Assembly: GCA_031269685.1 (NCBI GenBank)
Contig: JAISYU010000060.1
Span: 1-39,443 of the forward strand
Source of the DNA: Dysgonamonadaceae bacterium
Lineage (GTDB): Bacteria; Bacteroidota; Bacteroidia; Bacteroidales; Azobacteroidaceae
Reading direction: 5' to 3'
DNA: 39,443 bases
How positions within the stretch are numbered: the first letter of the stretch is position 1; each line of letters opens with the position of its first letter. The notes beneath the pieces were generated by a model. That model had not been told where the DNA came from. It searched no databases and saw nothing but the letters and a program-made list of their open reading frames with translations. Positions 39,188 to 39,443 of the stretch are shown piece after piece. The translations under genes were made by a program, and so were the position numbers.

Positions 39188-39443
39188 ATGAAAGAAAAAG
39201 TAACACATAGCACAGTAAATATTTCGTCAAATACCGCCAATAATTTGGTGGTGTCAAATATTTTGTTAACACACACACACACACACACACACACACACAC
39301 ACACACACACACACACACACACACCGCACCTGTTCATACCTTATATATTACGCGCGCGCATGTACACGCGAGACGCCATGTCTATATAATACACAATACT
39401 GTTTCACATCTTTTTTCAGAAGAAATAAGGGTGAAACTTTTTA
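39188..39443 (+). CDS. Possible 5' end of a gene with a Thr-His repeat (partial, doubtful)
   Basis: Open from ATG 39188 to the end of the window (85 codons, no stop). It begins MKEKVTHSTVN, then (AC)28 is read as nine Thr-His pairs, then TAPVHTLYITRAHVHARR. I recognise no family. The two other phases after the tract differ: one reaches TAA at 39387-39389, the other stays open to the window end. A change in AC copy number would therefore switch the downstream frame. Alternatively the whole stretch is untranslated leader and the true start lies beyond the window. Confidence 0.35.
   Translation, partial: MKEKVTHSTVNISSNTANNLVVSNILLTHTHTHTHTHTHTHTHTHTAPVHTLYITRAHVHARRHVYIIHNTVSHLFSEEIRVKLF
39269..39324. 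repeat. (AC)28 dinucleotide microsatellite
   Basis: Fifty-six bases of uninterrupted AC, 28 copies, starting 90 bp after the -7 element. A second alternating purine-pyrimidine stretch of 22 bases, including CGCGCGCGC, lies at 39349-39370. Both can adopt Z-DNA, and the first is prone to slipped-strand length change. Confidence 0.97.

Follow-up and report, generated by a model that had tools for sequence, protein, structure and literature searches.

A genome-wide set of candidate phase-variable leaders with (AC)n tracts in a Dysgonamonadaceae bacterium and related Bacteroidales

The (AC)28 tract near the end of the window, the 39,443-nucleotide stretch of DNA analysed here, probably forms the switch of a phase-variable, translation-dependent leader, one of a genome-wide set; judging from the sequences compared, we give this reading a probability of about three in four. 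The window is the whole of contig C121 of a 2,234,136-base assembly (125 contigs), and its end falls inside repeated sequence. The phase-variable role put forward by an earlier, sequence-only reading stands at the level of sequence, in a maintained open reading frame (ORF), a variable tract length and phases that either read through or stop early. The single locus which that reading implied is instead one member of a multi-copy cassette, with about 47 copies in the genome.

In the window copy, a Bacteroidota-type promoter can be assigned to positions 39150-39179 of the forward strand from its sequence and from the like arrangement in other copies, with TTG at 39150-39152 and the -7 box TACCTTTG at 39172-39179, 8 nt upstream of the ATG at 39188-39190. 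It had been described as perfect, which is true of the -7 box, an exact fit to TAnnTTTG, but not of the upstream element, which is ATTG and only close to TTTG. The near-absent 5' leader had been called odd, whereas it is typical of the family: TTTG and ATG lie 8-9 nt apart in most copies of the same genome. The leader ORF starts with 27 codons (MKEKVTHSTVNISSNTANNLVVSNILL, 39188-39268, forward strand), a part whose frame is kept in other copies and species, and continues into (AC)28 at 39269-39324, which the leader frame reads as (Thr-His)n. Both other frames are shut before the tract, frame +2 by a TAA at 39241-39243 with no ATG after it and frame +1 by the TAA that arises at the TTA/AC junction (39267-39269), so that only ribosomes translating the leader would enter the repeat. 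The first of these stops, again with no later ATG, has its equivalent in 77 of 81 copies and the second in 81 of 81, a figure partly implied by the search pattern.

Beyond the tract lie an alternating CG stretch (39350-39359), of a kind (GCGCGCG) conserved in many copies, and a TAA at 39387-39389 that ends the leader at n = 29, the early-stop phase; a homologous stop is present in three sister copies with the same tail. Reading of the three frames bore out that the present n is open to the window end, n+1 stops at this TAA and n+2 is open. As far as sequence can tell, the window copy (n = 28) is thus in an open phase, and one AC more would close it at 39387. The tail (39325-39443, where the contig ends) is common to contigs C106, C27, C29 and C71. 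No assembly contig begins inside it, and the gene downstream of the window copy was not found. In a sister copy with the same tail (L024, on C29), a gene lies 229 nt past the tract, two of the three phases are open to it, and by eye its first residues look DUF6261-like; a DUF6261 gene lies downstream at L028. The window contains no other dinucleotide run of more than 4 units, and an Rfam search of it returned one tRNA and nothing else.

The stretch directly before the tract, GTCAAATATTTTGTTA, occurs about 47 times in the 2.23-Mb genome, and a search of this genome gave 53 matches. Close reading and an array census covered 0.92 Mb of this genome, and there all 13 AC tracts of at least 7 units lie within this leader context. 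Many of its contigs break at leader/AC copies; short-read assemblies tend to do so, and such loci are therefore easily missed. The scan for TTGTTA(AC)9, with at most one mismatch allowed, covered 81 relatives (a number that includes the own genome) and had a match in 12 of them. An order-wide draw of 393 genomes added one further carrier (G107) and a phylum-wide draw of 395 yielded one (G371); an exact-pattern scan of a named genome collection gave no match. The motif recurs in related Bacteroidales of three families. A gene family that is often downstream of the leaders is present in Bacteroidales bins assembled from metagenomes, under the names Prevotellaceae, Tannerella, Dysgonamonadaceae and Odoribacteraceae; judging by how they were named, these bins would be of termite gut origin.

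Related genomes share the same leader core, although their leaders are otherwise dissimilar. Ahead of the tract, the leader ORFs read [N/Y]L-xxxx-[N/I/F][L/F]L; ACA CAC comes next, which gives Leu-(Thr-His)n, and the final Leu codon varies synonymously between TTA and CTA. A few leaders with TTGCTA (G371, L237) reach the tract in another frame, and their present phase is to be read with caution. Among the 81 copies, 8 lack an ATG in the frame assumed for them, which makes their present phase uncertain. Leader residues vary almost neutrally, the ORF is free of frameshifts and the C-type leaders of the own genome all have 41 codons; translation seems more important than the sequence of the peptide. 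The tract itself ranges from 3 to 46 units across copies. Among 30 pairs of near-identical leaders (at least 90% identical), n differs in 29 and does so out of frame in 22, a comparison made between copies and not within one culture, with lengths that come from a fragmented draft assembly and may be off by a unit.

The fate of the three frames after the tract also speaks for a switch. With the present n, 49 of 67 loci have a stop within 75 nt, a number that falls to 23 with one unit more and also to 23 with two. At 41 loci a downstream gene was identified, and there a phase was counted as open when its stop lay no earlier than 40 nt before the gene's ATG, or past it. Such a phase exists at 32 loci, compared with an expectation of 3.63 from shuffled intervals and with 4 of 41 in antisense, and every one of the 32 has another phase in which the stop comes within 75 nt; no phase is open to the gene at the other 9 of the 41. 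These loci are related to one another, which makes p-values that assume independence only indicative. When they are weighted by clusters of similar intervals, 26.0 of 34 are open (2.1 shuffled, 4.0 antisense); for the own genome taken by itself the figure is 9 of 14 (0.07 shuffled, 1 antisense). In their present state, 31 assembled copies have the early stop and 4 are open, which we take to mean that most copies would be off in the majority state captured by assembly. In common with SSR contingency loci, the family has a hypermutable repeat placed to shift the frame, an n that varies between similar copies and, at 32 of 41 loci, phases that predict distinct on and off outcomes.

The RNA between early stop and gene is far more structured than its shuffles (mean z -4.5, with 25 of 37 loci below -2), by a measure that array repeats inflate. 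In one relative, G004, loci L217 and L215 present an early stop, then a terminator hairpin (z -6.2 and -4.8, respectively) and then a NusG-family gene; at L217 only one phase crosses the hairpin. A general intrinsic terminator is not supported for the family, since U-tailed terminator-like hairpins are no commoner in sense than in antisense (6 versus 9, 37 loci). At many loci the interval is instead taken up by a hairpin-rich tandem array with a period of 21 or 42 bp. In the census of 0.92 Mb, 62 of 155 tandem arrays have a period of 21 and 15 more one of 41/42, with unrelated units. The 21-bp period fits two helical turns or seven codons. Reading the arrays as heptad proteins was discarded, as the 41-bp arrays and the unrelated units speak against it. 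Palindromes, at first considered as a conserved feature of the 21-bp units, exceed the shuffles only slightly (p<0.05 in 9 of 62 units) and carry no weight here. The window also holds, at 21663-22247 (forward strand), a 194-aa ORF built from a 42-bp unit, repeated about 11 times, that contains the palindrome AAACACTATGTGTTTT; it ends 44 nt before a membrane protein gene at 22292, PstA-like on our reading of its sequence. Additionally, a 23-bp tandem repeat, GCATACATTGTCGTTGTAAGCCG, occupies 3529-3700, with very similar units arrayed on other contigs (L149, L155, L159, L194, L197), and 9-bp repeats such as TTTAAGGAC/TTTAAAGAC are interspersed in intergenic regions at L019, L101 and L109.

The genes downstream of the leaders are diverse. 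Pfam assigns them to fimbrillin-like (L222), BspA-type LRR (L203), IgGFc-binding (L227), FGE-sulfatase (L212) and NusG (L217) families, and lipoproteins are also among the targets. In G371, a single 3.29-Mb contig, one of the three frames of the leaders L251, L253 and L254 fuses to FimA-like fimbrillin genes, and their tract lengths (23, 23 and 17) are all equal modulo 3. The term contingency gene, applied earlier to the window ORF, needs qualification, as the ORF is usually a separate leader before the gene; it does fit where one phase lies in the gene's own frame, as in G371, L212, L219, L221 and L222. Family F (L089-L116 and L117-L137) comprises 220-aa proteins, with 28 copies in the own genome, for which no Pfam or NCBIfam family was matched and whose predicted fold is a helical bundle with a fibronectin type III-like domain. 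Among the 40 family F genes examined, a few have the AC tract; 30 are preceded by a leader ORF that ends within 80 nt of the gene's ATG, 16 of these leader ORFs are promoter-linked, and most run through the array. The leader of L092 resembles an AC leader minus its tract. We take the AC-less leaders before family F genes as probable always-on relatives.

In the leader-switch model, transcription start, translation, slippage in living cells and the effect on expression are all parts that we infer. RNA polymerase would start a few bases before the ATG, as the promoter position suggests, and ribosomes would translate a leader of 25-41 codons that continues through (AC)n as Thr-His repeats. With both neighbouring frames shut upstream of the repeat, n alone would set the frame of exit. 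In the early-stop phase, ribosomes would leave within about 75 nt and uncover the structured stretch before the gene, either a terminator or a hairpin-rich tandem array, and the gene would be low or off. In the read-through phase, they would cross the interval, and the frame would end at the start codon of the gene, overlap it or continue into the gene as a fusion; the gene would be on through transcription read-through, translational coupling or both. Strand slippage in (AC)n would flip the state, and single cells could randomly switch genes on or off.

Other explanations account for parts of these observations. Tens of near-identical copies before unrelated genes, with a leader peptide near-neutral in sequence, are what might be expected of a dispersed mobile or gene-converted repeat that has no regulatory role and whose tract variation is neutral. 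Such a repeat, however, would not place frames that reach the gene start far above both shuffles and the antisense control, nor skew the present n to the early stop, nor keep the frame core across species with otherwise dissimilar leaders, and we consider this explanation unlikely. Less likely still is that the product, altered by phase, is the leader peptide, either Thr-His-rich or joined to repeats of 7 residues: the read-through phases do encode repeat proteins and the ORF is maintained without frameshifts, but leader residues are near-neutral, the frames end at the start of the next gene, and the repeat units have no sequence in common between loci, only the 21/42-bp period.

A classical amino-acid attenuator, in which Thr and His codons would stall ribosomes at low charged tRNA and thereby regulate the downstream gene, is brought to mind by the long Thr-His runs of the leader peptide and by the terminator after the leader in G004. 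The targets, however, are surface proteins and unknown families and not the biosynthetic genes to which such control codons belong, n spans 3 to 46, and the out-of-frame phases open to the gene would be left unexplained; we rate this possibility as very low. Equally improbable is an action at the level of DNA, where (AC)n and CG runs would favour the Z-DNA form, with effects on recombination or on supercoiling at the promoter; GCGCGCG does adjoin the AC tract in many copies, but neither the frame pattern nor the upstream stop codons would be predicted by it.

A wider and more tentative picture, which falls somewhat short of even odds in our estimation, is a switchboard dispersed over the genome, with tens of leader switches per genome in Bacteroidales, each independent and driven by a dinucleotide. 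To express the gene, ribosomes would have to cross hairpin-rich arrays up to its start, and AC-less versions of the leaders would be always on. About 47 switches of the same design in 2.2 Mb would permit very many surface states per population, and the model makes the role of the 21-bp arrays before these genes testable. Bacteroidales are known to switch surface genes by DNA inversion. To our knowledge, slippage-driven contingency tracts have hardly been described in this order, and a literature search of open-access papers found none.

Among known systems, coding SSR contingency loci, such as the CT repeats of Helicobacter pylori oipA and sabA and Neisseria opa, have in common with the AC leaders a short repeat near the gene's 5' end, frame shifts by slippage and surface proteins as products; unlike them, the repeat here resides in a separate leader at most loci, the direct coding form being seen in G371. 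In the translation-dependent trp, his and thr attenuators, too, a leader peptide precedes a terminator or structured region, whereas control here would be exerted by repeat number, not by tRNA charging, and the targets are not biosynthetic. The closest parallel is Streptococcus gallolyticus, where GCAGA repeats in the leader ORF of pil1 determine if translation extends as far as a terminator (Danne et al. 2014, PMC3894217). As in pil1/pil3, an SSR lies in a leader ORF ahead of the target gene, translation in the usual phase ends short of a hairpin into which the shifted phases read, and surface adhesin genes lie downstream, with most cells low in the case of pil1/pil3. That system has a GCAGA pentamer at two pilus loci, each with one intrinsic terminator, while the present one has an AC dinucleotide, about 47 copies in the own genome, neighbouring frames that are shut, read-through frames ending where the gene starts and, for the most part, hairpin-rich arrays of 21/42 bp in place of a terminator; an intrinsic terminator between leader and gene, as in pil1, is clear in L215 and L217 of G004 and is not a property of the whole family (6 of 37 loci). 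The leader-slippage design of S. gallolyticus would then have arisen separately here, and at genome scale. On the best reading of this comparison, the AC leaders would work like pil1 but would be independently built, and we do not assign the whole family to the pil1 type.
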